Part shown: in pieces, positions 7,177 through 26,090 of the stretch
How positions within the stretch are numbered: position 1 is the stretch's first letter
Layout: each line of letters starts with the position of its first letter
From: Actinosynnema sp. ALI-1.44
GTDB taxonomy: Bacteria; Actinomycetota; Actinomycetes; Mycobacteriales; Pseudonocardiaceae
Assembly: GCF_001984155.1 (NCBI RefSeq)
Contig: NZ_MTQO01000047.1
Coordinates: 62,001 to 126,000 of the forward strand
Direction: 5' to 3'
Length of the DNA: 64,000 bases
Program-made: the position numbers and the translations under genes
The notes under the pieces: generated by a model
Seen by the model: only the letters and a program-made list of their open reading frames with translations
What the model was told of the DNA's origin: nothing
The model's database searches: none

Positions 7177-7889
7177 TGCTGCTCGCCTTCTCCTGGCTGA
7201 CGGTGCTGCCGCTGCGGCCAGGGCGGGTCGACGCGGCCGGGGCACGCCGGGCGATCGCCGTGGCGCCCCTGGTCGGGGTGGTTCTTGGCCTGCTCGTGGC
7301 GGCCGTGCTGCAGGGGGCGCACGGCCTGCTCGGCGGGTTTCTGTGCGTGGGCCTGGTGGCGTTGGCGACGCGGGGAATGCACCTCGACGGTCTGGCCGAC
7401 ACCGTGGACGGCCTCGGGTGCTACGGGCCGCCGGAGCGCGCTTTGGCCGTGATGAAGGACGGCGGCGTCGGCGCGTTCGCCGTGGTGGCCCTCGTTGTCG
7501 TGCTGGGCCTGCAATCGGTTGCGCTCGCGACTGCCCACTGGGGAGCGGTCGTGCTGGCGTTCGCCGCGGGGCGTGCCTCTTTCGCGTGGTGCTGCCGCCG
7601 GGGAACGCCTGCGGCCCGTCCGGACGGGCTCGGGGCGCTGGTCGCCGGGTCCCAGTCGGTGTACGTGCCTGCCGGGTGGTTCGTTTTCCTCACCGCCGCG
7701 GCGGTTCCTGCCGTTCCGGACCGCCTGTGGGCCGGGCCGCTCGCTGTGCTGCTCGCCGCCGCCGCGCTGGCGGTGTTCACCGCGCACATCCGCAGGCGGT
7801 TCGGTGGCATCACCGGCGACGTCCTCGGCGCGGCGTGTGAGCTGACAGTCACGGTGATCCTGGTCGTCTGTGCGCTGGCGAGCAGCTGA
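7176..7889 (+). CDS. cobS: Adenosylcobinamide-GDP ribazoletransferase (cobalamin synthase)
   Basis: Membrane enzyme joining adenosylcobinamide-GDP and alpha-ribazole (phosphate) to form adenosylcobalamin (phosphate). 237 residues with about six to seven membrane segments. The metal/substrate motif HLDGLADTVDGLG, the MKDGGVGAF block, and GGITGDVLGA near the C-terminus are the family landmarks. Start GTG 7176 overlaps the cobT stop; a longer reading of the frame into cobT has no support. It completes the cobUTS nucleotide-loop operon. A 61-bp gap with a possible leaderless promoter separates it from the aldo/keto reductase. Confidence 0.94.
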   Translation: MLLAFSWLTVLPLRPGRVDAAGARRAIAVAPLVGVVLGLLVAAVLQGAHGLLGGFLCVGLVALATRGMHLDGLADTVDGLGCYGPPERALAVMKDGGVGAFAVVALVVVLGLQSVALATAHWGAVVLAFAAGRASFAWCCRRGTPAARPDGLGALVAGSQSVYVPAGWFVFLTAAAVPAVPDRLWAGPLAVLLAAAALAVFTAHIRRRFGGITGDVLGAACELTVTVILVVCALASS

Positions 7890-7950
7890 CCTGGGCGGAC
7901 TTGGGGGACACGGTTAGCGTTGCGAACGAATTTGGCGTTAAGTTGTCGGC

Positions 7951-8937
7951 ATGGAGTTTCGGAGGCTTGGCCGCAGTGGACTGACGGTCAGTGAGATCTC
8001 GTACGGCAACTGGATCACGCACGGCTCGCAGGTCGAGGAGGAGCAGGCGGTCGCCTGCGTGCGGGCGGCGCTCGACGCCGGGATCACCACGTTCGACACC
8101 GCCGACGTCTACGCCAACACCGCCGCCGAGTCGGTGCTGGGGCGGGCGCTTGCCGGGCAGCGGCGGGAGAGCCTGGAAATCCTCACCAAGGTCTTCTGGC
8201 CGACGGGCCCCAAGGGGCCCAACGACAGCGGCCTCGGCCGCAAGCACATCATCGAGTCGGCCAACGCGTCGCTCAAGCGGCTGCAGACCGACTACGTCGA
8301 CGTCTACCAGGCGCACCGGTTCGACCGCACGGTCCCGCTCGAGGAGACCATGCTGGCGTTCGCCGAGCTGGTCAGGCAGGGCAAGGCGCTCTACATCGGT
8401 GTGTCGGAGTGGACCGCCGAGCAGATCACCCAGGGCGCCGCGCTGGCCCGTGAGCTGCGGGTGCCGTTCATCTCCAACCAGCCGCAGTACTCCATGCTGT
8501 GGCGGGTGATCGAGTCGCAGGTCATCCCCGCGTCCGAGCGGGAGGGCCTCGGCCAGATCGTGTTCTCGCCGATCGCGCAGGGCGTGCTGACCGGCAAGTA
8601 CCTGCCCGGCCAGCCGGTTCCCGAGGGGTCGCGGGCCACCGACGAGTCCGGCAAGAACTTCGTCGGTCGCTGGTTGCGGGACGACGTGCTCGAGCGCGTC
8701 CAGCAGCTCAAGCCGCTGGCCGCCGAGGCCGGGCTGAGCCTGGCCCAGTTCGCCGTCGCGTGGGTGCTGCAGAACAAGAACGTCTCGTCGGCCATCATCG
8801 GCGCCTCCCGGCCCGAGCAGGTCACCGAGAACGTCAAGGCGTCCGGTGTCGTGCTGGAGCAGGGCCTGCTGGACAAGATCGACGCGGTCCTCGACGACGT
8901 CGTCACGACCGACCCGAGGCTCACCCAGACCCCGTGA
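7951..8937 (+). CDS. Aldo/keto reductase (Kv-beta/YghZ-like)
   Basis: NADPH-dependent oxidoreductase of the aldo/keto reductase superfamily, 328 residues, (beta/alpha)8 barrel. The catalytic tetrad can be traced: Asp and Tyr in FDTADVYANTAAE, Lys in EILTKVFWP, His in DVYQAHRFDR. The NADP-binding end IGASRPEQVTENVKASG is intact. Overall layout matches the potassium-channel beta-subunit-like group rather than metabolic xylose-type reductases; the substrate is unknown. TAAGTT at 7939-7944, six bases before the ATG, suggests a leaderless start. It ends at a strong hairpin, so it is probably monocistronic. Confidence 0.88.
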   Translation: MEFRRLGRSGLTVSEISYGNWITHGSQVEEEQAVACVRAALDAGITTFDTADVYANTAAESVLGRALAGQRRESLEILTKVFWPTGPKGPNDSGLGRKHIIESANASLKRLQTDYVDVYQAHRFDRTVPLEETMLAFAELVRQGKALYIGVSEWTAEQITQGAALARELRVPFISNQPQYSMLWRVIESQVIPASEREGLGQIVFSPIAQGVLTGKYLPGQPVPEGSRATDESGKNFVGRWLRDDVLERVQQLKPLAAEAGLSLAQFAVAWVLQNKNVSSAIIGASRPEQVTENVKASGVVLEQGLLDKIDAVLDDVVTTDPRLTQTP

Positions 8938-8942
8938 GCCGA

Positions 8943-8975
8943 AACCGGCCCGTGCGTGACTCGCACGGGCCGGTT
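8943..8975. terminator. Terminator hairpin after the aldo/keto reductase
   Basis: A perfect 14-bp GC-rich stem (AACCGGCCCGTGCG and its complement) with a five-base loop lies just after the stop at 8937 and before the convergent DUF3043 gene. No long U tract follows, as is common in actinomycetes; it could serve both strands. Confidence 0.8.
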
Positions 8976-8999
8976 CACCGGGAAGAACTGACTGGAAAC

Positions 9000-9644
9000 T
9001 CAGCGGGGGATGGCGTCGCCGGGCTTGAGGCGGGGCTTGGGCACCCGCAGCTTGCGGATCTGGCTCGCCCGCACGAACGCGTACCAGCCGATCGACGCGC
9101 CCCGGACCGTCTCCTTCGGGAACCTCTCCCTGACCAGCTTGGTCACCCTGCGGCCGTTGATGACGCCCTCGAGGATCATCATGATCAGCATCGCCAGGCA
9201 CACGAGCGTCGCGTAGTTCTGCACGATCGGGTTGGGCATCAGCAATGCGACGAACACCACAATTGCCAGCGGCATGAAGAGCCCGAGCAGGTTGCGGCGC
9301 GAATCCACCAGGTCACGCACGTAGGCCTTGACCGGGCCGCGGTCACGCGGCATCAGGTACTTGTCGTCGCCCGCCATCATCCGCTCACGGCGCTCCGCGG
9401 TGGCGGCGCGGCGCTCGTCCTTGGACGGGCGAGTCTGCTTCGCGCGGCGCATGGCCTCGCGCGTGGTCTGCGGAGCGGGCGCGACCGGGCCGCGCCTGCG
9501 GGCCTCCGCGTCGCGGCGCTTGGGCGTCGGCTTGCCCTTGCCCGCCGTGAACGCGCGGTTCGCGGGCTCCTCGACATCGACCCCTGTCTCCTCGACAGCG
9601 GCGGTGTCGGCCTTGTCATCTGAATTGCGGCGCAGGAACCTCAC
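9000..9644 (-). CDS. DUF3043 family membrane protein
   Basis: 214-residue actinobacterial protein: a charged, disordered N-terminal half rich in Arg/Lys/Ala (KRRDAEARRRGP, KDERRAATAERRERM), then two hydrophobic helices near residues 125-165 (LLGLFMPLAIVVFVALLM and ATLVCLAMLIMMILEGVI), then a basic cytoplasmic tail ending KPRLKPGDAIPR. The PNPIVQNYA turn between the helices is typical of DUF3043. Function unknown; the orthologue at this position in M. tuberculosis is thought to be Rv2206. Start is GTG 9644 (RFLRRNSDD); the upstream frame has no support, and a TAACCT box just before it suggests a leaderless start. Divergent from erpA. Confidence 0.85.
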   Translation of the reverse strand: MRFLRRNSDDKADTAAVEETGVDVEEPANRAFTAGKGKPTPKRRDAEARRRGPVAPAPQTTREAMRRAKQTRPSKDERRAATAERRERMMAGDDKYLMPRDRGPVKAYVRDLVDSRRNLLGLFMPLAIVVFVALLMPNPIVQNYATLVCLAMLIMMILEGVINGRRVTKLVRERFPKETVRGASIGWYAFVRASQIRKLRVPKPRLKPGDAIPR

Positions 9645-9826
9645 GTCCACTAGGTTATGACAAGCCCCGACCGGCTGGTTCGCCGGATGCGCCACGTCGC
9701 GCGGCAGGTGCGGTGGTGCCGTGCGACCACGCGTCAAGGCGACTGCCCCCGAACGTGTGTCACCATGGAATAAGACACCACGGCGATGTGTTCGCACCGC
9801 TGTAGTCGGATCTTCAAGGGAGTGTC

Positions 9827-10192
9827 ATGACGACCGCGCAGGAGAACACGACCGAAGCGGCGACCACGCACGGCGTGACGTTGTCCGAGAACGCCGCGAG
9901 CAAGGCCAAGGCACTGCTCGAGCAGGAAGGTCGCGACGACATGCACCTGCGGATCGCCGTCCAGCCAGGGGGCTGCGCCGGTCTGCGGTACCAGCTGTTC
10001 TTCGACGAGCGCTCGCTCGACGGCGACCTCTACCGTGACTTCGACGGCCTCAAGGTGGCCGTCGACCGGATGAGCGCCCCGTACGTCGAGGGTGCCGTCA
10101 TCGACTTCGTGGACACCATCGAGAAGCAGGGCTTCACGATCGAGAACCCGAACGCCACCGGCTCGTGCGCCTGCGGCGACTCGTTCCACTGA
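9827..10192 (+). CDS. erpA: A-type iron-sulfur carrier / insertion protein
   Basis: HesB/IscA-family protein that delivers Fe-S clusters to target enzymes. 121 residues. The three conserved cysteines are present: one in QPGGCAGLRYQ and two in the C-terminal SCACGDSF. An N-terminal extension of about 15 residues (TTAQENTTEAATTHG) precedes the domain. ATG 9827 follows an AAGGGAG ribosome-binding site; TAAGAC at about 9763-9768 is a candidate -10. It is isolated from isc/suf genes, as is usual in actinobacteria (orthologue Rv2204c). A strong hairpin follows. Confidence 0.93.
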   Translation: MTTAQENTTEAATTHGVTLSENAASKAKALLEQEGRDDMHLRIAVQPGGCAGLRYQLFFDERSLDGDLYRDFDGLKVAVDRMSAPYVEGAVIDFVDTIEKQGFTIENPNATGSCACGDSFH

Positions 10193-10216
10193 GCCCCACG
10201 GGCGACAAAAGCGACA

Positions 10217-10250
10217 AAAGGGCCGCTGCCGTACTCGGCAGCGGCCCTTT
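10217..10250. terminator. Terminator hairpin after erpA
   Basis: Inverted repeat AAAGGGCCGCTGCC/GGCAGCGGCCCTTT, 14-bp perfect stem with a six-base loop and a short T run at the end. It lies between the convergent erpA and 60-residue genes and can act on both strands. Confidence 0.9.
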
Positions 10251-10281
10251 CGCGCCCTGTCAGACGATCTCGGCGGACGGG

Positions 10282-10464
10282 TCAGACGTACTCGTCGAGG
10301 TCCTTGACCTGTGCGTGGCAGCCCTCGGTGACCTCCCACGCCGGTGCCAGCCGCTGCGGCGGGAATCCCTGAGCCGGGGACTGCCGGACGGATGGCGGGA
10401 TGTCGGCGCAGTCGGCGATCAGCTCGTCGATCGAATCGGCCTCGGTGATGTTCACAGACCTCAC
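10282..10464 (-). CDS. Small conserved hypothetical protein
   Basis: 60-residue acidic protein (MRSVNITEADSIDELIADCA at the N-terminus; ends AQVKDLDEYV). A helical SIDELIADCADIPPSV stretch is followed by a proline-rich segment. No recognised domain. GTG 10464 is used; the GTG at 10455 (VNITEAD) is an alternative. A position between erpA and the adenosine kinase-like gene, divergent from the latter, is compatible with the small gene found there in related actinomycetes. Evidence is limited to context and coding-like composition. Confidence 0.5.
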   Translation of the reverse strand: MRSVNITEADSIDELIADCADIPPSVRQSPAQGFPPQRLAPAWEVTEGCHAQVKDLDEYV

Positions 10465-10495
10465 GTTATTGAGGGGAAAACGAACTTCCCATGCT

Positions 10496-10507
10496 TACCG
10501 CTCGGTA
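10496..10507. promoter_or_regulatory. Short palindrome TACCG-CT-CGGTA in divergent promoter region
   Basis: Five-base inverted arms separated by two bases, lying between the divergently read 60-residue gene (start 10464) and the kinase gene (start 10619). This shape resembles operators of many TetR-family repressors. No TetR gene is nearby, so the role is inference. Confidence 0.35.
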
Positions 10508-10618
10508 GTGTGGTGTGGCAGCCGGTGAACCACCCGCACGGGTGGCGATGTCGTGTGTCCTGCCGAGGCGGGACACTGGTGGCTGACGTCGTCGCTCGCA
10601 CAAGACAGGAGGGCTGAA

Positions 10619-11596
10619 GTGCCCGTTGCCGTATCCGGAAGTATCGCAAGCGATCACTTGATGCACTTTCCGGGACGCTTCGCCGAGCAGGTCCTGCCGG
10701 AACAGATCCACCGGCTCTCGCTCAGCTTCCTCGTTGACGACCTCCAGGTCCGCCGCGGTGGGATCGGCGCGAACATCGCCTTCGGAATGGGCGTGCTCGG
10801 CTGCAACCCCGTCCTCGTCGGCGCCGCGGGCAAGGACTTCGACGACTACCGCTCGTGGCTGGAGCGGCACGGCGTCGACTGCCGGGGAGTGCACATCTCC
10901 GAGACGGCGCAGACCGCGCGGTTCGTCTGCACGACAGACGAAGACATGTCCCAGATCGCCTCGTTCTACGCGGGCGCGATGGCCGAGTCCCGGCAGATCG
11001 AGATCAAGCCGATCGTCGACCAGGTCGGCGAGCTCGACCTGGTGATGATCAGTCCGGACGACCCGGACGCGATGATCAGGCACGCACAGGAGTGCCGCCA
11101 GCGCGGCTACACCTTCGCCGTCGACCCGTCGCAGCAGCTGGCCAGGATGAACGGCGAGCAGGTCCGCGAGTTCCTCGTCGGCGCCAAGTACCTGTTCAGC
11201 AACGACTACGAGTGGGAGCTGCTGCTCAAGAAGACCGGTTGGACCGAGGCCGAGGTGCTCGACAAGGTCGGCATGCGGATCACCACGCTCGGCGAGAAGG
11301 GCGCGGAGATCATCGACCGCAAGGGCCCGGTCGTGCACGTGACCGCCGTGCCCGAGCTGGCCAAGGCCGACCCGACCGGCGTCGGCGACGCGTTCCGCGC
11401 CGGGTTCCTCGCCGGGCTGTCCCACGGCCTCGACCTGGAGCGGGCCGCGCAGCTGGGCTCCTACATCGCTGTGCTCGTCCTGGAGACGATGGGCCCGCAG
11501 GAGTGGACCTTCGACGCCGCCGAGGCCGTGACGCGGATCAGCGGCGCGTTCGGCCCGGAAGCGGCGCAGGACATCGCGGCGATCCTGCCGTCATGA
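10619..11596 (+). CDS. adoK: PfkB-family carbohydrate/adenosine kinase
   Basis: Ribokinase-fold kinase of 325 residues, closest in character to the mycobacterial adenosine kinase AdoK/CbhK (Rv2202c), which makes AMP from adenosine. Substrate-side block GSIASDHLMHFPGRF and GGIGANIAFGMGVLG at the N-terminus; the ATP/catalytic signature DPTGVGDAFRAGFLAG, with its catalytic Asp, is near residues 255-270. Start GTG 10619 has a perfect GGAGG site six bases upstream, and the longer frame is rejected. The stop overlaps the next start (ATGA), so the XdhC-like gene is translationally coupled. Sugar specificity could still be broader than adenosine. Confidence 0.85.
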   Translation: MPVAVSGSIASDHLMHFPGRFAEQVLPEQIHRLSLSFLVDDLQVRRGGIGANIAFGMGVLGCNPVLVGAAGKDFDDYRSWLERHGVDCRGVHISETAQTARFVCTTDEDMSQIASFYAGAMAESRQIEIKPIVDQVGELDLVMISPDDPDAMIRHAQECRQRGYTFAVDPSQQLARMNGEQVREFLVGAKYLFSNDYEWELLLKKTGWTEAEVLDKVGMRITTLGEKGAEIIDRKGPVVHVTAVPELAKADPTGVGDAFRAGFLAGLSHGLDLERAAQLGSYIAVLVLETMGPQEWTFDAAEAVTRISGAFGPEAAQDIAAILPS

Positions 11597-12057
11597 CAGA
11601 CCCCTCCTGCGACGTGGCGCACGGCAGGGTCGTGCCGGAGGTCGAGCACCGCGGCCTGGTCGCGGTGTTCGACACACCGGTGGCCCGGCACCTCGTGCGC
11701 TACGCGCAGGACCTGGGGTTCTCCGCTTTCGTCCACGAGCCGTCCGAGGCGCTGCCGGAGTTGGACGGCACCTACGACGTCGTGGTGACCGACCACCACC
11801 GCGACGAGCTGGGCACCGTGTTGCGTGACGTGCTGGCGTACCCGGTCAGGTGGGTCGGCGTGATGGGCAACCCCCGCCACGAAGGCCCGCACGTGCAGGC
11901 GCTCAAGGCGCTGGGCGTGCCCGACGAGCAGATCAAGCGGGTGCACCGCCCGGTCGGCCTGAACATCGGGTCGCGCACCCCGCCCGAGATCGCCGTCGCG
12001 ACGATCGCGGGCCTGGTGGCGGACCGCAACGCCCGCCCCGGCGGCTTCGACTTCTGA
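11593..12057 (+). CDS. Stand-alone XdhC C-terminal (Rossmann) domain protein
   Basis: 154-residue protein matching only the C-terminal NAD(P)-like Rossmann domain of XdhC/CoxF proteins, which mature molybdenum hydroxylases. The signature RWVGVMGNPRHEGPHVQAL and the diagnostic VGLNIGSRTPPEIAVATIAG are clear; the N-terminal XdhC/CoxI domain with its conserved cysteine is absent. No molybdenum hydroxylase gene is in the window. It is coupled to the kinase gene through ATGA at 11593-11596. The job is therefore uncertain; a purine-related link with the upstream adenosine kinase is possible but not shown. A palindromic terminator follows. Confidence 0.75.
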   Translation: MTDPSCDVAHGRVVPEVEHRGLVAVFDTPVARHLVRYAQDLGFSAFVHEPSEALPELDGTYDVVVTDHHRDELGTVLRDVLAYPVRWVGVMGNPRHEGPHVQALKALGVPDEQIKRVHRPVGLNIGSRTPPEIAVATIAGLVADRNARPGGFDF

Positions 12058-12066
12058 GGCGCACGG

Positions 12067-12094
12067 AAAAGGGGCCCCAGCTGGGGCCCCTTTT
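12067..12094. terminator. Perfect 28-bp palindromic bidirectional terminator
   Basis: A continuous perfect palindrome with arms AAAAGGGGCCCCAG and CTGGGGCCCCTTTT lies between the converging XdhC-like and asnB genes. The A and T tracts on its flanks give an intrinsic terminator in both directions. Confidence 0.93.
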
Positions 12095-12100
12095 TCATGG

Positions 12101-14026
12101 TCAGAGACGAACGGGGTAGTGCGGCTCGGGGACCTGCGGGCGGATCCGGCCCTCGACGAAGATGCCGTACCAGATCATGAACACCAGCAGCGCCCACAAC
12201 CGGCGGCTGTGGTCGATCTCGTTGCGGCGGTGCTCCTCGAGCATCTCCAGGATGGCGGCCTTGTCCAGGAACGGGTCGGTTCCGGAGTCGCGGATGATGC
12301 CCGCGGCCCACTCGTAGAGCTCCTCACGCAGCCAGTGCCGCACCGGCACCGGGAAACCCAGCTTGCGCCGGTTGAGCACGTGCGCGGGCACGATGTCGCG
12401 CATCGCGGCACGCAGCGCGTACTTCGTGGTCTCCTTGGTGATCTTCTCTTCCAACGGGATGCGGGACGCGACCTTGAAGACCTCGGTGTCCAGGAACGGC
12501 ACCCGCAGCTCCAGCGAGTTGGCCATGGTCACCTTGTCGGCCTTGACCAGGATGTCGCCGCGCAGCCACGTGAACAGGTCGACGTGCTGCATCCGGGTCA
12601 CCGGGTCCCAGTCGCGCGAGGCGCGGTAGTGCGGCGCCGTCACGTCCATGTGGCCGATGGCCGGGTTGAACGTCCGCAGCACGCGCCGGATCTGGTCGTC
12701 GCGGAAGATCCGGGCGTTGCCGTAGTAGCGCTCTTCCAGCGACAGCGCGCCGCGGCGCAGGAAGTCCTTGCCGCGCTTGCCTTCCGGCATCTTCGTCGAC
12801 AGGTTGCCCATCGCCTTGCGCAGCGCGCCCGGCACCTTCTCGAAGGCCGCGAGGGAGATCGGCTCGCGGTAGATCGTGTAACCGCCGAACAGCTCGTCCG
12901 CGCCCTCGCCGGACAGCACGACCTTCACGTACTGCCTGGCCTCGCGGGCGATGAACCACAACGGCACCAGCGCCGGGTCGGCCACCGGGTCGTCCAGGTA
13001 CCACACGATCAGCGGCAGGTACTCCATCACTTCCTGCGCCGACACCGTGCGGACCACGTGCTTCACGCCGATCGCCGCCGCGGACTCCGCCGCCACGTCC
13101 ACCTCGGAGTAGCCCTGGCGCTCGAACCCGGTGGTGAACGTGATCAGGTCCGGGTTGTGCTGCTTGGCCAGCGCCGCGATCGCGGTGGAGTCGATGCCGC
13201 CGGACAGGAACGAGCCGACCGTCACGTCCGCGCGCATGTGCTTGGCGACCGAGTCGCGCATCACAGCGGCGATGTCCGAGTGCAGGCGGCCGGACTCGTA
13301 CTGGCTGACCGACAACGGCTGGAACACCGGGTCGAAGTACCGGTTGGTGGTCATCGTGCCGTCGTGCGTGACCCTGAACGACGTGCCGGACTCGATCCGC
13401 CGGACCGTGTCGTGCATGGTCTCCGGCTCCGGCACGTACTGCAGTACGACGTAGTGCTGCAACGCGGTCTTGTCGATCCGCGGCGACACGCTCAGTGCGC
13501 GGCTGAGCGCGAGCAGGCTCTTCTTCTCGCTGGCGAACGCCATCCCGCCGGGGCCGGAGGTGTAGAACAGCGGTTTGATGCCGAACGGGTCACGCGCGCC
13601 GAACAGTTCGCCCTTGTACGAGTCCCAGATCAGGAAGGCGAACATGCCGCGGAAGCGCTTCACCACATCGGGGCCGTAGAAGTGGTACGCGGCCACCATC
13701 GCCTCGGCCTCGCCGTCCGTGGCGAACTTCAGGTTGAACTCGCGCTTGAGGTCCGCACGCAGCTCGAGGTAGTTGTACACCTCGCCGTTGAACAGGATGG
13801 TGTACCGGTTCGGCGCGTCCACCGGGCCCCAGTGCAGCGGCTGGTGGGAGTGCGCGATGTCGACGATCGACAACCGGTTGAACCCGAAGATGACCCCGCG
13901 GTCGGCCCAGGTACCGCTCTCGTCGGGACCGCGGTGCCGCTGGCAGCGCAGCGCGGCGTCGACCGCGGCGCGGGCCGTGTCGGCGTCGAGTTCGGAAGGG
14001 CAGACCAGGCCAAGCAGACCGCACAC
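12101..14026 (-). CDS. asnB: Asparagine synthetase, glutamine-hydrolysing
   Basis: Forms asparagine from aspartate, glutamine and ATP. 641 residues: N-terminal class II glutaminase (about 1-215) with the nucleophile Cys2 directly after the start (MCGLLGLV), then the synthetase domain with the ATP pyrophosphatase loop SFLSGGIDSTAIAAL and the SGEGADELFGGY block. The need for Cys2 fixes the GTG start at 14026. Orthologue of Rv2201, which in M. tuberculosis also sits beside ctaC; relatives at this locus have been linked to amidation of cell-wall components in some actinomycetes, which is an alternative role. Divergent from ctaC. Confidence 0.93.
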   Translation of the reverse strand: MCGLLGLVCPSELDADTARAAVDAALRCQRHRGPDESGTWADRGVIFGFNRLSIVDIAHSHQPLHWGPVDAPNRYTILFNGEVYNYLELRADLKREFNLKFATDGEAEAMVAAYHFYGPDVVKRFRGMFAFLIWDSYKGELFGARDPFGIKPLFYTSGPGGMAFASEKKSLLALSRALSVSPRIDKTALQHYVVLQYVPEPETMHDTVRRIESGTSFRVTHDGTMTTNRYFDPVFQPLSVSQYESGRLHSDIAAVMRDSVAKHMRADVTVGSFLSGGIDSTAIAALAKQHNPDLITFTTGFERQGYSEVDVAAESAAAIGVKHVVRTVSAQEVMEYLPLIVWYLDDPVADPALVPLWFIAREARQYVKVVLSGEGADELFGGYTIYREPISLAAFEKVPGALRKAMGNLSTKMPEGKRGKDFLRRGALSLEERYYGNARIFRDDQIRRVLRTFNPAIGHMDVTAPHYRASRDWDPVTRMQHVDLFTWLRGDILVKADKVTMANSLELRVPFLDTEVFKVASRIPLEEKITKETTKYALRAAMRDIVPAHVLNRRKLGFPVPVRHWLREELYEWAAGIIRDSGTDPFLDKAAILEMLEEHRRNEIDHSRRLWALLVFMIWYGIFVEGRIRPQVPEPHYPVRL

Positions 14027-18044: not shown

Positions 18045-18893
18045 ATGACGAGTAAGAAGGCGGAAGCCGCCGGGGAGAGCAAGGCGACGCGCAAGCAAGC
18101 CCGCTCCTCCAAGCGGCGTCGGCGGATCTCCGGACTGCTCGCGTTGTTCGTGGCTCTGATCGGTGTCGGCGCGTTGTACAGCGCGATCGCCCCGGAGCCG
18201 CAGACAGCCAACGCTTCGCAGGACCCGGCGTTGATCCGCAAGGGTGAGCAGATCTACAACAACACCTGCATCACGTGCCACGGCGAGGGCGCGCAGGGCG
18301 TGAAGGACCGCGGCCCCAGCCTGATCGGCATCGGTGAGGCGGCTGTGTACTTCCAGACCTCCACCGGCCGGATGCCGATGGCCGCGCAGACCGCCCAGGC
18401 CGAGCGCAAGCCACCGAAGCTGTCGCCGGAAGAGATCGACGCGGTGATCGCGTACATCGAGTCCAAGTCGGCCGGCGCCAACCCCGGGCCCAAGCTGCCC
18501 GAGGAAAAGGGCGAGAAGCTGCGCGGGGACAACCCGGCGCGCGGTGGCGAGCTGTTCCGGATGAACTGCGCCTCCTGCCACAACTTCACCGGTCGCGGCG
18601 GTGCGTTGTCCTCCGGCAAGTTCGCCCCGGAGCTCGACCCGGCGACCGAGGAGCAGCTTTACGCGGCGATGCTGTCCGGTCCGCAGAACATGCCCAGGTT
18701 CTCCGACCGCCAGCTGTCGCCGGAGGAGAAGAAGGACATCATCGCGTACGTCAAGTCGGTGACCGACGGGAACAACAACCCAGGTGGTGCGCCCATCGGC
18801 GGGATCGGCCCGCAGTCCGAGGGACTGATCGCGTTCATCGTGGGTATGGCGGCGCTGATTGGCATCACGTTGTGGATCGGAGCCAAGTCGTGA
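18045..18893 (+). CDS. qcrC: Cytochrome bc1 complex diheme cytochrome c subunit
   Basis: Carries electrons from the Rieske protein directly to CuA of the oxidase, replacing soluble cytochrome c in actinobacteria. 282 residues from ATG 18045: a basic N-terminus (SKRRRR), one membrane helix (about 29-48), two cytochrome c domains with heme motifs CITCH and CASCH, a C-terminal anchor helix (SEGLIAFIVGMAALIGITLW). Axial Met candidates are in GRMPMAAQ and PQNMPRFS. A TTG at 18033 adds four residues and is less likely. The stop overlaps the qcrA start. Confidence 0.96.
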   Translation: MTSKKAEAAGESKATRKQARSSKRRRRISGLLALFVALIGVGALYSAIAPEPQTANASQDPALIRKGEQIYNNTCITCHGEGAQGVKDRGPSLIGIGEAAVYFQTSTGRMPMAAQTAQAERKPPKLSPEEIDAVIAYIESKSAGANPGPKLPEEKGEKLRGDNPARGGELFRMNCASCHNFTGRGGALSSGKFAPELDPATEEQLYAAMLSGPQNMPRFSDRQLSPEEKKDIIAYVKSVTDGNNNPGGAPIGGIGPQSEGLIAFIVGMAALIGITLWIGAKS

Positions 18894-20080
18894 GCGAGCA
18901 GAACAAAGAAGGCCTGCCGACCGAGGCCGAGCTCGCCGAGATGGACCGCGACCAGCTGCTCAAGCTGGGCGGCAAGCTCGACGGGGTCGAGTTCGCCGAG
19001 TACACCGACCCGTGGCCGGTCAAGGGCACCAAGGCGGAGAAGCGCGCCGAGCGCGCCGTCGCCGCCTGGTTCACCCTCGCCGGGCTGGCCGGGCTGGCGT
19101 TCATCGGCGTGTTCCTCTGGTGGCCGTGGGAGTACGTCCCGCCCACCAACGACGAGCACTGGCTGTACCTGCTGTACACCCCGCTGCTCGGCCTGACGCT
19201 GGGTCTGTCGATCCTCGGTGTCGGCGTCGGTGTGGTCATGTACGCGAAGAAGTTCCTGCCCCACGAGGTGGCGATCCAGCAGCGGCACGAAGGTCCGTCG
19301 TCCGAGGTGGACCGGCAGACGTTCGTGGCGCACCTGGCCGACGCGGGCGACCGCAGCACCATCGCCCGCCGGTCGATCATCAAGCGTTCCGCCCTGTTCG
19401 GCGCGGGTGCGTTCGGGCTGGCCACGGCCGCGTTGCCGCTGGGCAGCCTGATCCACAACCCGCACAAGGAGTCGGCCAACGAGAACGGCCTGTGGCACAC
19501 CGGGTGGCTGGCGAAGGACGGCGAGCGCGTCTTCCTGCGCCGCGACACGGGCGACGCGCACGCCCTCGAGCTGGTCAAGCCGGAGGACCTGGACGCGGGC
19601 GCGATGGAAACGGTGTTCCCGTTCCACGCGCCGAAGACCTCGTCCGGCGGCGTCGACTACGCCAAGCTGGAGGGCATGCTGGCCGGCACCGAGCGGGTCG
19701 ACGAGCACGCCCTGGTCGAGGCGCTGCGCCGGTCGGACAACCCGGTCATGCTCATCCGCCTGCGTCCCGACGACGCCAAGCGGGTGGTCAAGCACCAGGG
19801 CCAGGAGGACTACAACTTCGGCGACTTCTACGCGTACACGAAGATCTGCAGTCACCTCGGTTGCCCGACCTCGTTGTACGAACAGCGGACCAACCGGATC
19901 CTGTGCCCGTGCCACCAGTCGCAGTTCGACGCGTTGCAGTACGCCAAGCCGATCTTCGGCCCGGCCACCCGCAAACTGGCGCAGCTGCCCATTCAGGTCG
20001 ACACTGAGACGGGTTACCTTTACGCCAGGTCGGACTTCAACGAGGCAGTAGGACCGGCCTTCTGGGAGCGGAAGTCATGA
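18890..20080 (+). CDS. qcrA: Cytochrome bc1 complex Rieske iron-sulfur subunit
   Basis: 396 residues. The N-terminal half has three membrane helices (near 60-80, 96-120 and 165-185), the extended actinobacterial architecture; the C-terminal half is the periplasm-side Rieske domain. Ligands of the 2Fe-2S cluster are in [10 protein letters not shown] and CPCHQSQFD (Cys and His from each), with the disulfide cysteines in the same loops. GTG 18890 overlaps the TGA of qcrC; the slightly longer frame is not needed. Coupled by ATGA to qcrB. Confidence 0.96.
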
Positions 20081-21744
20081 GCGGACTCACGACGCCAACC
20101 AAACAGGCCAACCCCGCGGCGAAGTTCGCCGCGGCGGCGGGCAACTGGGCCGACGACCGGCTGCACGCCGCTGGTGGCCTGCGCAAGCAGATGAACAAGG
20201 TCTTCCCGACGCACTGGTCGTTCCTGCTCGGTGAAGTCGCGCTGTACAGCTTCATCGTCCTGCTGCTGTCGGGTACGTACCTCGCGCTGTTCTTCGACCC
20301 GTCGATGCAGCACGTCGAGTACCAGGGCGCGTTCACCAACCTGCGTGGTCTGGGGATGTCCCGGGCCTACGAGACGGCGCTGAACCTGTCGTTCGAGGTG
20401 CGTGGCGGTCTGTTCGTCCGCCAGGTGCACCACTGGGCGGCGCTGCTGTTCATGGCCGCGATCGTGCTGCACATGTTCCGCGTGTTCTTCACCGGTGCGT
20501 TCCGGCGCCCGCGTGAGACCAACTGGGTGATCGGCATCCTGCTGTTCATGCTGGGCGCGATCGAGGGCTTCGCGGGCTACTCGCTGCCGGACGACCTGCT
20601 CTCCGGCGCCGGTCTGCGGATCATGTCGGGCCTGATCCTCTCGCTGCCGGTGATCGGCACCTGGGTGAACTGGCTGCTGTTCCGGGGCGAGTTCCCCGGC
20701 GAGGAAGTCATCCCGATGCTGTACACCGCGCACATCCTGCTGGTGCCCGGCATCCTGTTGGCGCTGGTCGCGGTGCACGTCGGCCTGGTGTGGTACCAGA
20801 AGCACACGCAGTTCCCCGGTGTGCTCAAGAAGGAGACCAACGTCGTCGGCGTGCGGATCATGCCGTACTTCTCGCTCAAGGGCGGCGGCTTCTTCGCCAT
20901 CGTCGTCGGCGTCATCGCCATGCTCGGTGGCCTCTTCCAGATCAACCCGATCTGGAACTTCGGGCCCTTCAACCCGGCGCACATCTCGGCCGGCACGGTG
21001 CCCGACTGGTACATGGGCTGGACGGACGGCCTGATCCGGTTGTGGCCCGCGTGGGAGATCTACCTCGGGGACTACATGATCCCGGCCGCGTTCTTCCCGT
21101 TCATGCTGGGCCTGCCGTTGCTGACCGGGATCGCGGCGGTCTACCCGTGGATCGAGAAGAAGTTCACCAAGGACTACGCGCACCACAACTTGCTGCAGCG
21201 TCCGCGTGACGTGCCGGTCCGCACCTCGCTCGGTGCCATGGCCATCACGTACTTCATGGTCTCGCTGCTGTCGGCCGCGAACGACGTCCTGGCGGAGAAG
21301 TTCGACATCTCGTTGAACGCGACGACCTGGATGGGCCGGATCGGACTGCTGGTGCTGCCGCCGCTGGCGTACTTCATCACGTACCGGATCTGCCTCGGCC
21401 TGCAGCACGCGGACCGCGAGGTCCTGGCACACGGTGTAGAGACGGGCATCATCAAGCGGCTGCCGCACGGTGAGTTCATCGAGCTGCACCAGCCGCTGGG
21501 CCCGGTCGACGACCACGGCCACCCGATCCCGCTGGCGTACCAGGGTGCCGCTGTGCCGAAGAAGATGAACAAGCTCGGCTCGGCCGGACGGCCGGTCAAG
21601 GGCACGTTGCTGGCCCCGGACCCGGTCGAGGAGACCAAGGCCCTGGAGGCGGCTCGCGCTGCCCAGCACAACGGGCACGGCACGAACGGGCACGGCACGA
21701 ACGGCCACGGTGCCGCCGGAGGCGGCGGGCCGGTCGAGCACTGA
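20077..21744 (+). CDS. qcrB: Cytochrome bc1 complex cytochrome b subunit (main copy)
   Basis: Membrane subunit that oxidises menaquinol and holds hemes bL and bH; target of telacebec in mycobacteria. 555 residues, eight core helices. The bis-His ligands appear as paired motifs [15 protein letters not shown] and [16 protein letters not shown]; the Qo-site loop reads VPDWYMGW. The C-terminus carries a hydrophilic tail with a short NGHGT repeat ([20 protein letters not shown]) not found in the second copy. Translationally coupled to qcrA by ATGA at 20077. A hairpin terminator follows, ending the ctaE-qcrCAB operon. Confidence 0.97.
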
Positions 21745-21767
21745 CCTGACCTGGCGCAACACCTCTC

Positions 21768-21807
21768 AGGACCCCCTTTCGGGCGATTTCGCCCGGGAGG
21801 GGGTCCT
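21768..21807 (+). terminator. Terminator of the ctaE-qcrCAB operon
   Basis: AGGACCCCC...GGGGGTCCT outer arms with inner CGGGCGA/TCGCCCG form a stem of about 16 bp with one bulge region, 23 bases after the qcrB stop. It separates qcrB from the paralogous second copy, implying that the latter has its own promoter. Confidence 0.85.
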
Positions 21808-21816
21808 GCCGCGTCC

Positions 21817-21830
21817 GGGACCTAGGTCCC
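21817..21830. promoter_or_regulatory. 14-bp palindrome GGGACCTAGGTCCC, DosR-box-like operator
   Basis: A perfect palindrome 60 bases before the start of the second qcrB. It differs by one symmetrical base from the core GGGACTNNAGTCCC of the mycobacterial DosR/DevR hypoxia box. CAGAAT at 21855-21860 is a possible -10; a transcript start near 21867 would put the palindrome centre near -43, the usual place for a class II activator. Binding by a DosR-type regulator is inference. Confidence 0.55.
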
Positions 21831-21889
21831 TAGGGTGCGGGTGCCCGGCGGCCACAGAATGGTGATCAGGCGAAGCCTGGGGAGGCGCC

Positions 21890-23464
21890 ATGAGTGGCCT
21901 GACGACACCGACCAAGGGTCCGAATCCGGCGGCCAAAGCGGCCGCGGCGGTGGGGAACTGGGCTGACGACCGGCTGCACGCGGCCGGTGGCCTACGGCGT
22001 CAGTTCAACAAGGTGTTCCCGACGCACTGGTCGTTCCTGCTCGGTGAGGTGGCGCTGTACAGCTTCATCGTCCTGCTGCTGTCGGGTACGTACCTCGCGC
22101 TGTTCTTCGACCCGTCGATGCAGCACGTGGAGTACCAGGGGTCGTTCACGAACCTGCGTGGCGTGCAGATGTCCCGCGCCTACGAGTCCGCGTTGAACAT
22201 CTCCTTCGAGGTACGCGGTGGCTTGTTCGTGCGCCAGGTGCACCACTGGGCCGCGTTGCTGTTCATGGCAGCGCTCGTGTTGCATATGTTGCGGGTGTTC
22301 TTCACCGGCGCGTTCCGGCGCCCGCGTGAGACCAACTGGGTGATCGGGATCGTGCTGTTCCTGATCGGCACGATCGAGGGGTTGACCGGGTACTCGCTGC
22401 CCGACGACCTGCTCTCCGGCGCGGGGATCCGGGTCACCTCCGGGCTGATCATGTCCATCCCGGTGATCGGGACCTGGCTGAACTGGCTGCTGTTCCGCGG
22501 TGAGTTCCCCGGTGAGGAGTTCATCCCGTTCATCTACACCGCGCACATCCTGATCATCCCCGGCCTCATCCTCGCGCTGGTGGCCGTGCACGTCGGGCTG
22601 GTGTGGTACCAGAAGCACACGCAGTTCCCCGGCCACCTCCGCAAGGAGTCCAATGTGGTCGGTGTGCGGATCATGCCGTACTTCTCGCTCAAGGGCGGCG
22701 GCTTCTTCGCCATCGTGGTCGGCGTGATCGCCTTGCTGGGCGGCCTGTTCCAGATCAACCCGATCTGGAACTTCGGGCCCTTCAACACCGCGCACATCTC
22801 GTCGGGCATCGTGCCGGACTGGTACATGGCGTGGACGGACGGTCTGGTCCGGCTGTGGCCCGCGTGGGAAATCTCGTTGTGGGACTACACGATCCCGGCC
22901 GCGTTCTTCCCGTTCATGCTGGGCCTGCCGTTGCTGACCGGGATCGCGGCGGCCTACCCGTGGATCGAGCGGAAGTTCACGAAGGACTACGCGCACCACA
23001 ACTTGCTGCAGCGTCCGCGTGACGTGCCGGTCCGCACCTCGTTGGGTGCCATGGCGATCACGTACTTCATGGTGATGCTGCTGTCAGCGGCCAACGACGT
23101 GTTCGCGGAGAAGTTCGACATCTCGTTGAACGCGACCACGTGGATGGGCCGGATCGGACTGTTGGTGCTGCCGCCGCTGGCGTACTTCATCACGTACCGC
23201 ATCTGCCTCGGCCTGCAGCACGCGGACCGCGAGGTGCTCGCACACGGAGTCGAGACGGGCATCATCAAGCGACTGCCACACGGCGAATTCATCGAACTGC
23301 ACCAGCCGCTGGCGGACCGCCCACTGGTCTACCAGGGCACGGCCGTGCCCAAGAAGATGAACAAGCTCGGCTCAGCCGGACGCCCGGTCGCGGGCACACT
23401 GCTGAGCCCGGACCCACTCGACGAGACCAAGGCGTTGGAGCGCGCCCGCTCAGAGCGAACCTAG
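21890..23464 (+). CDS. qcrB2: Second cytochrome b subunit (qcrB paralogue)
   Basis: 524 residues, co-linear with the qcrB product over the whole membrane domain and nearly identical in long blocks. Heme-ligand pairs ([31 protein letters not shown]) and the quinone-loop VPDWYMAW are retained, so it should be functional. Differences cluster in helix segments after the first heme pair (LTGYSLPDD versus [18 protein letters not shown] versus MSGLILSLP), and the His/Gly-rich tail is missing. It has a GGGGAGG site before ATG 21890, its own upstream region with a palindrome, and no companion qcrC or qcrA. Probably an alternative cytochrome b used under different conditions; DNA composition matches its neighbour, indicating local duplication. 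Confidence 0.93.
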
Positions 23465-23499: not shown

Positions 23500-24267
23500 T
23501 CAGCGGATGTCGCAGTAGGGGTACAGCTGAGTACGGCTGTCGTCGACGGGCGGGATGGCTTTGCGGGGGATGACCCACGTTTCCCGGCCGAAGCTCGAGC
23601 AGGCCCCGGTGACCACCGTGTACTGCCGGGTGCCGCCGACGACGGTTCCGTTGGCGTCGCGGAAAACGGCTGCCGGATTCGCACCCCACAACGGGCGGCA
23701 CGCGACTGACTGCGGCACAAACCGGATCTCCGTGCTGTGTGCGACTTGGGGATCCTTGCGAACGGTCTGCCGATACTCGGCGGTGACTGGTCCGAAGTCG
23801 TCTCCCAACGCGTCGACAGCCAGCCACTGAGAGGTCCGCGTCTCGGTCACGAACTTGGTCACTCGCAGTTCGCTGGCCCTGGCCGGGCTGATCGTCATCC
23901 CGACACCGATCCGCTGGCCCGGCATGATGATGGGGATCTCATCCGTGGCCTTCTCGTAACCGGTGATCTCCGCGCCTCGCGCGTCAAGGAGCCGAAGAGT
24001 GACCTGTGTGTGATACGCGATCCGGTCGTGCGGGTTCTCCAGCACCACGCCGAGACTCACCGAGTTGAATTCGTCCACCGGTTGTGTGAACCCCTGGTCG
24101 ATCACGTGCAGACCGCCCGGAGACGCGTCGGCCGAGCCCTCGTTCGGCGGCACCGCCTCAGGGATGTCGCACGACGCCCCGAACCACCTGGAGCCGAGCA
24201 AGACAGCCGTGGCCGTCCCCACAACGGCCACAACCACGATCACGATCCACCGTTGACGTCGTGTCAC
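23500..24267 (-). CDS. Membrane-anchored extracytoplasmic protein of the T7SS-like operon
   Basis: 255 residues: one N-terminal anchor helix (about 7-25, WIVIVVVAVVGTATAVLLG), then an exported region. Four cysteines (in SCDIPEAV, VACRPLWG, GACSSFG and the near-terminal YCDIR) could form two disulfides. The middle (VSLGVVLENPHDRIAYHTQV ... EIPIIMPGQRIGVGMTI) looks like an Ig-like FxLYD-type beta domain. No catalytic motif. Its GTGA start overlaps the stop of the preceding YbaB-like gene, making it the last gene of a four-gene operon. Function unknown; an outside-facing partner of the WxG proteins is a guess. Confidence 0.75.
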   Translation of the reverse strand: MTRRQRWIVIVVVAVVGTATAVLLGSRWFGASCDIPEAVPPNEGSADASPGGLHVIDQGFTQPVDEFNSVSLGVVLENPHDRIAYHTQVTLRLLDARGAEITGYEKATDEIPIIMPGQRIGVGMTISPARASELRVTKFVTETRTSQWLAVDALGDDFGPVTAEYRQTVRKDPQVAHSTEIRFVPQSVACRPLWGANPAAVFRDANGTVVGGTRQYTVVTGACSSFGRETWVIPRKAIPPVDDSRTQLYPYCDIR

Positions 24268-24755
24268 GTGAAGTACCTGAGTTTGAGATCGCGTATACCT
24301 GCCTGGTAGCTGTCGGCCAGATCCTGGACAGCCTCGTGGAGCCGGGCGGCGAACTCGCTCTCGTTCAGTTCACGGATCGTTCCCCGGACAATGTGGACTT
24401 CCAGATTCTGCATTCCCACCACCGAGAGCGTCACGCGCCCGTCCTGAGAACGTCCGCTCGACTCCATGGCGGCACGGGCCGCGATGAAGTCCCGGTCATT
24501 CTGGGTCTCCGGTCCTGCCGCGTTGAGGAAGGACTCGTCGAGTTCAGCGCGGTACTTCCGGATCCACTCCACGTAGAGCAGCCGGCCCATACTCGCGAGG
24601 AGGTGTTCCAGAGTGCGTTCGGTCATCCACTCGTAGACGCTCTCGCCGAACGAGATCGAGACTTCCTTGCGGTTGCGCAGGTCGGCGTAGATTTCCGACC
24701 CGGGGGCCTGGACTCTCAGGCGGATGCTGTCCAGCCGGTCGGCGAGTGAGTCCAT
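24264..24755 (-). CDS. YbaB/EbfC-like protein
   Basis: 163 residues from ATG 24755 (MDSLADRLDSIRLRV). The C-terminal half, GRVTLSVVGMQNLEVHIVRG followed by LNESEFAARLHEAVQDLADSY, has the strand-strand-helix pattern of the YbaB/EbfC nucleoid-associated family; the N-terminal half (YEWMTERTLEHLLASMGRLL) is helical and extra. YbaB-like genes often accompany WXG100/T7SS-type gene clusters in actinomycetes. It may bind DNA or act as a small dimeric adaptor; assignment is from pattern only. It follows the WxG gene by one base and overlaps the next gene by four. Confidence 0.65.
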   Translation of the reverse strand: MDSLADRLDSIRLRVQAPGSEIYADLRNRKEVSISFGESVYEWMTERTLEHLLASMGRLLYVEWIRKYRAELDESFLNAAGPETQNDRDFIAARAAMESSGRSQDGRVTLSVVGMQNLEVHIVRGTIRELNESEFAARLHEAVQDLADSYQAGIRDLKLRYFT

Positions 24756-24756
24756 G

Positions 24757-25686
24757 TCAGCTCGCCTCACCCATCTGGTCGGCCCCGGTCATGGGGCGTC
24801 CACGGCCGTCCGCCAGTGCGGGTCGATTGGCGACCAGGAGCGCACGGTTCGCGCCGACCAGGTCGCCTACCGCGGTCAGTGCGGGCGCGATCCCCGGAAC
24901 GCCACCGTTGCCCTTGGTCTCGACGTCACGGATGAGGTCTGCCAACGCGTTGAGAGCTTGTTTCATCGCATTGGTGATCTGGACAGCCGTTTCGCCCGCG
25001 TACTGCTTCTCCGTGTTCGAGGGCGGCGCAGCCGCGGCTACCTGAGCCGCGGCGCCTACAGCGGTGACCGCGATCGGCGCGGCGGTGCCTGCGGTGAGCA
25101 AGGACGCGCCGACCGCCGCTACCGACGCGACCACAGTGAAGCCGATGGTCCAAGCGTTCTTGTTGCTACAAGCGGCGTTGTCCAGCGCGTCCATGGTCGT
25201 GTGCGCGATCTTGTCCACGTCGTCGCGGGCCTTCGCCCACATGGATTGGTGTGCTTCCAGGGACGCCTTCAGGACACTGGCCAGGATGAACTGGTTGCGG
25301 GCGACAGGCGGAAACGTGTCCAGGAAGTTCTGCTTGAAGGCCATCGCGGCTTTGCCGGTCCAGTCCTCCAGGTAGTCACTCGCGGTGGTCATGTTGGCCA
25401 GGACGACATTGGCCAGGTAGATGTCGTTGGTGACCGGGTCCTTGTTCTCGCCGCTGGACAGTTTTCGCAGTACTACCTTGAGATCGTCGATCAGAGGCTG
25501 ATAACCAGCGGGTTCGGGCATGTCGGCGAACGGCCGGAACAGCTCGGGGATGTCGCGGTAATAGCCCTCGACGCCGCCGCGAGCATACTCGGGATCCGTT
25601 TCGTTGTTCGTTACGGCACGTTTTATCGCTTTCTGCTGAATGGCGGCGGCGTGCGTCATGAGTTCGTCGAAGCTCATCCGCTTCAC
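24757..25686 (-). CDS. WxG-motif protein, putative type VII secretion substrate
   Basis: 309 residues. A WTG motif at 109-111 in YLEDWTGKAAMAFKQNFLD matches the helical turn of WXG100-type proteins; flanking regions (60-170) are predicted helical. Residues about 178-220 are a long Ala/Gly/Val-rich hydrophobic stretch (FTVVASVAAVGASLLTAG) that could insert in a membrane. The C-terminus is disordered. GTG 25686 overlaps the stop of the upstream gene (GTGA); ATG 25677 (SFDELMTHA) is the alternative start. No toxin signature was recognised at the end, so it need not be a polymorphic toxin. Confidence 0.7.
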   Translation of the reverse strand: MKRMSFDELMTHAAAIQQKAIKRAVTNNETDPEYARGGVEGYYRDIPELFRPFADMPEPAGYQPLIDDLKVVLRKLSSGENKDPVTNDIYLANVVLANMTTASDYLEDWTGKAAMAFKQNFLDTFPPVARNQFILASVLKASLEAHQSMWAKARDDVDKIAHTTMDALDNAACSNKNAWTIGFTVVASVAAVGASLLTAGTAAPIAVTAVGAAAQVAAAAPPSNTEKQYAGETAVQITNAMKQALNALADLIRDVETKGNGGVPGIAPALTAVGDLVGANRALLVANRPALADGRGRPMTGADQMGEAS

Positions 25687-26090
25687 CCCTGGTCCGGTTT
25701 GGGCTCACCGACTGTTTGACGCAGGCGGTCGAGCTCCGTCTTGGCACCATGGTCCGTGGCCGCGTACTGTTCCACCGCCTGGCTCAACGCGTCGGCCGTG
25801 TCGGTGAGGCTGACATCCGTCTCAGTCAGGAACTTGGCCAGATCACCTTGCAGTGTGGCCCAAGCGCTGTGCACAGGCCCGAGGGAATCCCCGAACCGGT
25901 CGGGCCTGCGCATGACGCCGTCGAGGTTGGTCAGCACCGCGTTCAGTTTGCTCGTGGCCTCGCGGTATTCGGCAGCCACTGACGGCAGGTTGTCCTTCGC
26001 GACTACCAGAAGCTTGTAAAGATCAGCTCCGAGTTCCGCTCCGTGTGTCCCCACATCGTCCCCCTGGAGTCGAGTGACGTCGTGGGACAT
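25683..26090 (-). CDS. WXG100-like / EspC-like helical protein with YxxxD signal
   Basis: 135 residues, wholly helical in character, with a tryptophan turn (GPVHSAWATLQGDLAKFL, about 71-88) between two long helices. A C-terminal YAATD at 109-113 fits the general type VII export signal YxxxD/E. Size and layout match small secreted partners such as EspC or WXG100 proteins. First gene of the four-gene operon; ATG 26090. The 237 bases upstream (26091-26327), of lower GC than average, hold its promoter and no other gene that I could support. T7SS core genes are not in the window. Confidence 0.7.
   Translation of the reverse strand: MSHDVTRLQGDDVGTHGAELGADLYKLLVVAKDNLPSVAAEYREATSKLNAVLTNLDGVMRRPDRFGDSLGPVHSAWATLQGDLAKFLTETDVSLTDTADALSQAVEQYAATDHGAKTELDRLRQTVGEPKPDQG

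Follow-up and report, generated by a model that had tools for sequence, protein, structure and literature searches.

We propose that qcrB2, a second cytochrome b gene of Actinosynnema sp. ALI-1.44, encodes an alternative cytochrome b of the bcc complex that belongs to a small DosR-type respiratory regulon and is induced when respiration is limited, a reading to which we give a probability of roughly 60%. It builds on the gene itself, its conservation, a common upstream site, regulator genes and residue differences, all obtained by computation. The regulon would be marked by RGGACCTAGGTCCY and comprise qcrB2, cydABDC, the gene of one type II NADH dehydrogenase and ccdA-resB. Once respiration is limited, because oxygen is scarce, the chain is blocked or the quinone pool is over-reduced, a DosR-type regulator, most likely the one encoded beside cydABDC together with a GAF kinase, would occupy the palindrome near -43 and thereby activate qcrB2. 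A back-up set that also includes bd oxidase, NDH-2 and cytochrome c maturation would be switched on, and QcrB2, with its small changes near the quinol-oxidation pocket, would take the place of QcrB1 beside the common QcrC and QcrA subunits. Binding, activation, signal, assembly and benefit are predictions from sequence in this scheme.

The exchange of whole terminal oxidases is well known in bacteria, and a regulated exchange of the catalytic bcc cytochrome b would add a new layer to respiratory switching. The bcc complex is, besides, an antimycobacterial drug target. The common site would furthermore single out a compact respiratory regulon of the Pseudonocardiaceae, for which there are candidate regulators with an input open to direct testing.

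The qcrB2 gene and its upstream region

The window, i.e. the whole stretch of 64,000 nucleotides analyzed here, is located on contig C44 of the 11.7-Mb source genome (G000). It carries a cluster in the order ctaE-qcrC-qcrA-qcrB, in which qcrB1 is the last gene and is followed by the qcrB2 region:

18048–18893, plus strand: qcrC, dihaem cytochrome c subunit, presumed common partner (ORF and tblastn synteny in the genus)
18890–20080, plus strand: qcrA, Rieske subunit, presumed common partner (ORF and tblastn synteny in the genus)
20077–21744, plus strand: qcrB1, ordinary cytochrome b, 555 aa (ORF; NF050120, 745 bits)
21767–21808, plus strand: hairpin 3' of qcrB1, probable transcription boundary (folding energy)
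21817–21830, no strand assigned: palindrome GGGACCTAGGTCCC, candidate DosR-type site (scan of genome and relatives)
21855–21860, plus strand: CAGAAT, probable -10 element with a predicted start at about 21867 (alignment of 8 upstream regions)
21879–21885, plus strand: GGGGAGG, probable ribosome-binding site (sequence; in 7 of 8 aligned upstream regions)
21890–23464, plus strand: qcrB2, second complete cytochrome b, 524 aa (identity, NF050120, tree, residues)

A first, sequence-only reading of this DNA had claimed a second complete qcrB that keeps the haem-ligand histidines and the quinone loop, and both claims hold. The frame is intact over its 524 codons, and the product scores 739 bits in NF050120, the NCBIfam family of actinobacterial QcrB, which is above the cut-off of 500. 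Over all 524 codons compared, QcrB2 and QcrB1 are 88.2% identical at the amino-acid and 86.2% at the nucleotide level. Both copies share the histidines 118/119, 132, 219 and 234 of the haem-ligand helices, which from general knowledge of cytochrome b we take to be haem-binding, as well as PDWY at 309 and SLPDD at 169. QcrB2 resembles the known actinobacterial bcc QcrB in its full length, its haem histidines, its PDWY loop and its score. It differs in being encoded by a second copy in one cluster, preceded by an upstream region of its own, and in a distinct set of residues, many of them near the quinol-oxidation pocket. A loop of about 7 residues that QcrB1 has is absent from QcrB2, and so is the C-terminal tail. 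Judged from their position in the cluster, QcrC and QcrA are presumably common to both QcrB copies. Further downstream, a block of four genes on the minus strand (window 23500–26090) lies between qcrB2 and an AsnC/Lrp gene. Since the AsnC/Lrp gene directly follows qcrB2 on its 3' side in the related genome G002, this block is probably an insertion in the source strain.

The upstream region bears out most of what had been read from it. The terminator proposed behind qcrB1 stands as a structure, a strong 19-bp hairpin (-41.9 kcal/mol, z -6.8); however, no T run follows it in the sequence, and its terminator function is consequently putative. Inverted repeats after qcrB1, read by eye without folding, are also found in relatives. 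The palindrome before qcrB2 is exact. Within CAGAAT, five of six bases (C, A, A, A, T) are invariant across the 8 homologous upstream regions, and if the transcript start is placed from this element, the centre of the palindrome lies about 43 bases before it, in agreement with the distance given earlier; in G001 and G006 this distance shrinks by 2 bases. The one aligned region without the GGGGAGG element belongs to the third qcrB copy of G007.

A common site upstream of respiratory genes

A loose scan of the window alone, with three mismatches allowed, gave 5 matches versus 4.0 expected, which is not above chance. Support for the palindrome consequently comes from the genome and from relatives. 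The sequence-only reading had suggested a genome scan for the same motif, and in the 11.7-Mb genome GGGACCTAGGTCCC occurs exactly at two places and with one mismatch at two more, all four adjoining respiratory genes. Besides the site at qcrB2, one lies between ccsX and ccdA-resB, which are cytochrome c maturation genes, one 80 bases upstream of ndh, encoding a type II NADH dehydrogenase, and one 57 bases upstream of cydA of the bd oxidase; the latter also faces a divergent transporter gene in the source strain and its close kin. Another 26 places show two mismatches, 19 inside and 7 outside genes according to a crude ORF picker, and no clear further target emerged when all of them were read. 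One of the 7 outside genes, GGGACCGATGTCCC (C51:550654; L286 8155), is followed after about 100 bases by a NarL-type regulator gene, which is none of the three DosR-type regulators discussed below. An intergenic GGGACGATCGTCCC (L148 1501), found between a gene of the small multidrug-resistance type and an Fe-S reductase gene as judged by eye, is a possible further member of the regulon.

The genus was surveyed in 8 genomes. In seven of them a second qcrB lies within or close to the cluster, G007 additionally has a third, and the palindrome (GGGACSTASGTCCC) precedes all 8 tandem extra copies of these 7 genomes. Even in G003, where about 7 kb separate qcrB1 from qcrB2, the palindrome stays with qcrB2. 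These 7 kb (L120, 8400 to 15388) are inserted between the qcrB1 hairpin and the qcrB2 palindrome. The three tandem qcrB genes of G007 (L125, G007:C7:481000-500000) occupy 7681–12866, the third being shorter, on a long branch and with a palindrome of its own. One hairpin-like element, CCTCGTGAGTG...CACTCACGAGG, is found repeatedly between genes of G001 and G007 (upstream regions of L118, L125 and L179), in some cases adjoining palindromes. A Kibdelosporangium-type qcrB2 locus with 94% identity was also encountered under the label Rhodococcus rhodnii NRRL B-16535 (L065, JOAA01000010.1), a label that looks wrong.

The other three targets are conserved as well. The site is found upstream of ccdA in 8/8 genomes of the genus (0–2 mismatches), upstream of cydA in 8/8 (0–3 mismatches) and upstream of ndh in all 7 genomes with an orthologue (1–2 mismatches), the eighth being without a close ndh. 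Of 18 ndh paralogues listed, 14 were examined, and none of these shows a site at up to 3 mismatches, although the third one of G001 carries GGGACGGCTGTCCC, whose half-sites are perfect, at -50. Among the longer cydA-type matches, the two second genes (in G006 and G007) have no site. Neither ctaE (7 genomes) nor qcrC (8 genomes) has a site upstream, and a place with 3 mismatches is found 278–303 bases upstream of ctaC in 3 of 5 cases. In a random control of 3000 windows of 320 bp, the best match had exactly 2 mismatches in none and 3 mismatches in 50 windows; matches with 0–1 mismatches came up in 30 windows, drawn from a pool that contains the qcrB2 sites. A chance match is thus rejected by the places in the genome, the recurrence in the genus and the random windows.

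Beyond the genus, the family search drew 60 genomes, and the GenBank-named scan covered the best 80 of 589 matches. The exact GGGACCTAGGTCCY is present in 18 of the 60 family genomes, 16 of which belong to other genera. There, 9 of the 16 exact sites lie upstream of cydA, 2 upstream of ctaA (both in one genus), 2 near the ATP synthase operon (again one genus, with atpB confirmed in L221 only) and 1 beside a hydrolase gene, while 2 have no assigned target. At several loci of other genera (L222, L226, L227, L228 and L233), the cydA palindrome has another conserved element, near GGACC-ACGGGACCTGA, immediately behind it.

The site may not act positively at every target. In 5 of 7 genomes, TATCGT stands directly upstream of the ndh palindrome, and this placement would suit repression rather than activation. 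As the promoter position thus differs between targets, the activation of qcrB2 is something we infer.

Candidate regulators and known systems

At the far end of cydA-cydB-cydDC, the source genome encodes a kinase (376 aa; GAF, HisKA_3 and HATPase domains) and a response regulator (210 aa; receiver and GerE domains) in convergent orientation. The nearest solved relative of the regulator is DevR/DosR (E 2.5e-70, 239 bits), followed by VraR with 148 bits. The DosR recognition helix AEKTVKNYV is unchanged in it, and with this segment Lys179, Lys182 and Asn183 are kept, which contact bases in DosR (PMC4082495). TVKNYV is found in 13 of the 15 cyd-linked regulators detected and TVKNHV in the other 2. 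All 17 site-bearing loci (that of G000, seven more from the genus and nine from other genera) have a DosS-like kinase after cydABDC, and 15 of the 17 a DosR-like regulator within about 1 kb of the kinase; since presence of the site was the criterion for choosing the nine loci outside the genus, this linkage is not a blind test.

The ATPase domain of the kinase is nearest to DevS and DosT, its GAF domain to DosT. While DosS and DosT carry two GAF domains, the 376 residues of the cyd-linked kinase comprise one GAF region. Furthermore, none of the 17 kinases aligns a histidine with the proximal haem ligand of GAF-A (His149 of DosS, His147 of DosT); that of L332 has one histidine about four columns away. 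Consequently, the cyd-linked kinase may sense something other than oxygen. Neither the regulator nor the kinase reached an NCBIfam cut-off. For the hypoxia switch of DosR type that had been suggested from the sequence, this means that the DosR part is supported, by the conserved site common to cydA, ndh and ccdA-resB and by DosR-type regulators, whereas oxygen is no more than a candidate signal, given that the kinase lacks the haem histidine. One might speculate that the cyd-linked two-component system senses the state of the respiratory chain instead of oxygen and switches the bcc complex to a cytochrome b with a retuned quinol-oxidation site, the supercomplex thereby changing its quinol affinity or inhibitor tolerance through one exchanged catalytic subunit, although we regard this specific combination as rather unlikely.

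A genome devoid of DosR-type regulators would have been at odds with the sequence-only reading; at least three with the DosR recognition helix are encoded in the source genome, one of them beside cydABDC. The regulator at C49 is even nearer to DosR than the cyd-linked one (274 versus 239 bits), and its kinase likewise has no histidine at the haem-ligand place, while the third one, at C41, scores 217 bits. With these two as further candidates, the cyd-linked regulator is a probable binder. There is good support for a reader of DosR type at the palindrome and less for any single protein, with linkage favouring the cyd pair.

The M. tuberculosis DosR box is TTSGGGACTWWAGTCCCSAA, with a central TWWA and outer TTS/SAA. 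The GGGAC-N4-GTCCC half-sites and their spacing resemble those of the DosR/DevR regulon of Mycobacterium, and the recognition helix of the cyd-linked regulator is the same. However, the spacer is CTAG here instead of TWWA, and the flanks differ from TTS/SAA. The targets differ as well, being respiratory enzymes rather than the Usp genes of the DosR dormancy regulon; no Usp gene was found within 20 kb of the listed palindromes, and few Usp genes occur. In contrast to DosS and DosT, the kinase is a single-GAF protein without the haem-ligand histidine, and the linkage of the regulator to cydABDC sets it apart from both DosR and OsdR. The latter, from Streptomyces coelicolor, has the consensus AGGGCCGATCGGCCCT, with the same 5-4-5 layout as the qcrB2 palindrome (PMC5069765).

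Could the site be read by another type of regulator, such as CRP/GlxR, HrrA or Rex, with qcrB2 as part of a general respiration regulon? We consider this improbable, although respiratory genes are under such control elsewhere. The targets of Rex reportedly include cyd and atp genes. Aerobic metabolism is controlled by Rex in Streptomyces avermitilis (PMC5355995), and ctaE, cydA and ctaC by HrrA in Corynebacterium (PMC7337898). Moreover, GGGACCTAGGTCCC differs from a CRP-like GTGACCTAGGTCAC at two symmetrical positions only. However, GTGACCTAGGTCAC is separately intergenic at two other places, so the two motifs mark different genes and CRP was rejected as the reader of the palindrome; the pattern GTGA-N6-TCAC of CRP/GlxR is not found at qcrB2, where the palindrome reads GGGA-N6-TCCC. 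The half-site GGGAC with its 4-base spacer has DosR architecture, and the pair linked to cydABDC is of DosR type, which further argues against this alternative. The two CRP-like sites are located at L355 1140 and L348 1062, one of them upstream of a gene that appears Rpf-like by eye.

Among regulators that coordinate bcc-aa3 and bd oxidase genes, HrrSA of Corynebacterium glutamicum is a parallel; it responds to haem (PMC7337898), and the cyd-linked regulator differs in being nearest to DevR, ahead of ChrA, among solved relatives. In M. smegmatis, Crp1 induces cydAB under respiratory inhibition (PMC7739888), likewise a case in which limitation of the main branch brings in a back-up oxidase. In contrast to the system proposed here, the regulator there is a CRP, and a second qcrB is not known to take part. 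Most subscription journals lie outside the coverage of our literature search; within it, the motif string of the palindrome returned only unrelated human papers, a combination of DosR, cydAB and qcrB was not described for the genus or family names, and SCO3948 was not mentioned.

Residue differences and descent of QcrB2

With the loop and the tail excluded, 12 positions differ between every QcrB1 and every QcrB2 of the 7 genomes (37, 158, 161, 165, 166, 182, 183, 188, 320, 329, 396 and 405). The alignment at the quinone sites, proposed earlier as a check, places these differences in a cluster near the quinol-oxidation pocket, while the other quinone site is unchanged at six named residues. Positions 165, 183 and 320 correspond by alignment to Tyr161, Ala179 and Ala317 of M. 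tuberculosis QcrB, which contact menaquinone, Q203 or TB47 (PMC8616580). Contacts are enriched among the difference positions (3/10 versus 18/320, P 0.014), and so are positions within one residue of contacts (7/10 versus 46/320, P 7e-5), in a test that covered 18 of the 22 contacts named, selected with the differences already known, had no control for site variability and counted neighbours that are not independent. Furthermore, a set of 15 single-copy QcrBs from the family varies at most of these positions. In that set, threonine is common at 183, and so are isoleucine, valine or leucine at 320; only leucine 165 (1/15) and serine 329 (0/15) are unusual. Thus, the enrichment is weaker than it looks, given the variation in the family, the post-hoc contacts and the dependent neighbours.

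These differences bear on another explanation, namely that QcrB2 is an inhibitor-proof isoform, made under blockage of the chain, with a quinol pocket that withstands bcc inhibitors released by competitors or by the producer itself, and with the regulon answering blockage instead of low oxygen. It draws on the three positions that match menaquinone, Q203 or TB47 contacts and on a kinase without the DosS-type haem ligand; in addition, the co-regulated cydA encodes bd oxidase, the classic bypass of a blocked bcc complex. However, the contact test lacks a variability control, the residues at 183 and 320 are common in the family, and the equivalent of Thr313 is unchanged. We therefore regard a dedicated resistance isoform as doubtful, and prefer the alternative cytochrome b of a DosR-type respiratory regulon.

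In a tree of 42 chosen QcrB sequences, QcrB2 forms a single clade (100/98) that is sister to the QcrB1 clade of the genus. The branching orders of the two clades are nearly identical and postdate the separation from G005, which is most simply explained by one duplication followed by vertical descent, with QcrB2 arising once in the genus. With dN/dS values of 0.055–0.115 over 21 QcrB2 pairs, compared to 0.023–0.206 over 28 QcrB1 pairs, QcrB2 is under purifying selection. At the same time, the third-position identity between qcrB1 and qcrB2 is patchy, near 1.0 in codons 331–375, and the same-genome dS of G002 (0.279) is below cross-genome values, both of which are signs of gene conversion. A duplicate that is neutral or kept for gene dosage, maintained by gene conversion and with an incidental palindrome, would fit these signs, the repeated duplication of qcrB in the family and the variation of most difference positions there, but it is the least likely of the explanations considered here: separate residue sets, along with the distinct states of the loop and the tail, persist in 7/7 genomes despite conversion, dN/dS is low, and the site stays with the copy, even across the gap in G003 and at the third copy of G007.

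Duplicates of qcrB have arisen several times in the family. G005 has no tandem copy of qcrB and instead an intact orphan elsewhere, without palindrome (L123). That L123 is a broken or moved QcrB2 was rejected, as its frame is open with TAG as ordinary stop and as it groups with orphans of other genera (93/92, tree of 23 chosen rows); it shares several pocket residues with QcrB2. Orphan qcrB genes without qcrC/qcrA neighbours were seen in the genus and in other genera (L068, L084, L092, L101, L113, L123 and L128–L131). Those of other genera were rejected as part of the qcrB2 system, given their varied neighbours and separate duplications in the tree, and the stretches fetched around them contain no GGGACN4GTCCC except for one distant site in L068. 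In QcrB2 as well as in several orphan QcrBs, leucine 165 is accompanied by threonine 183.
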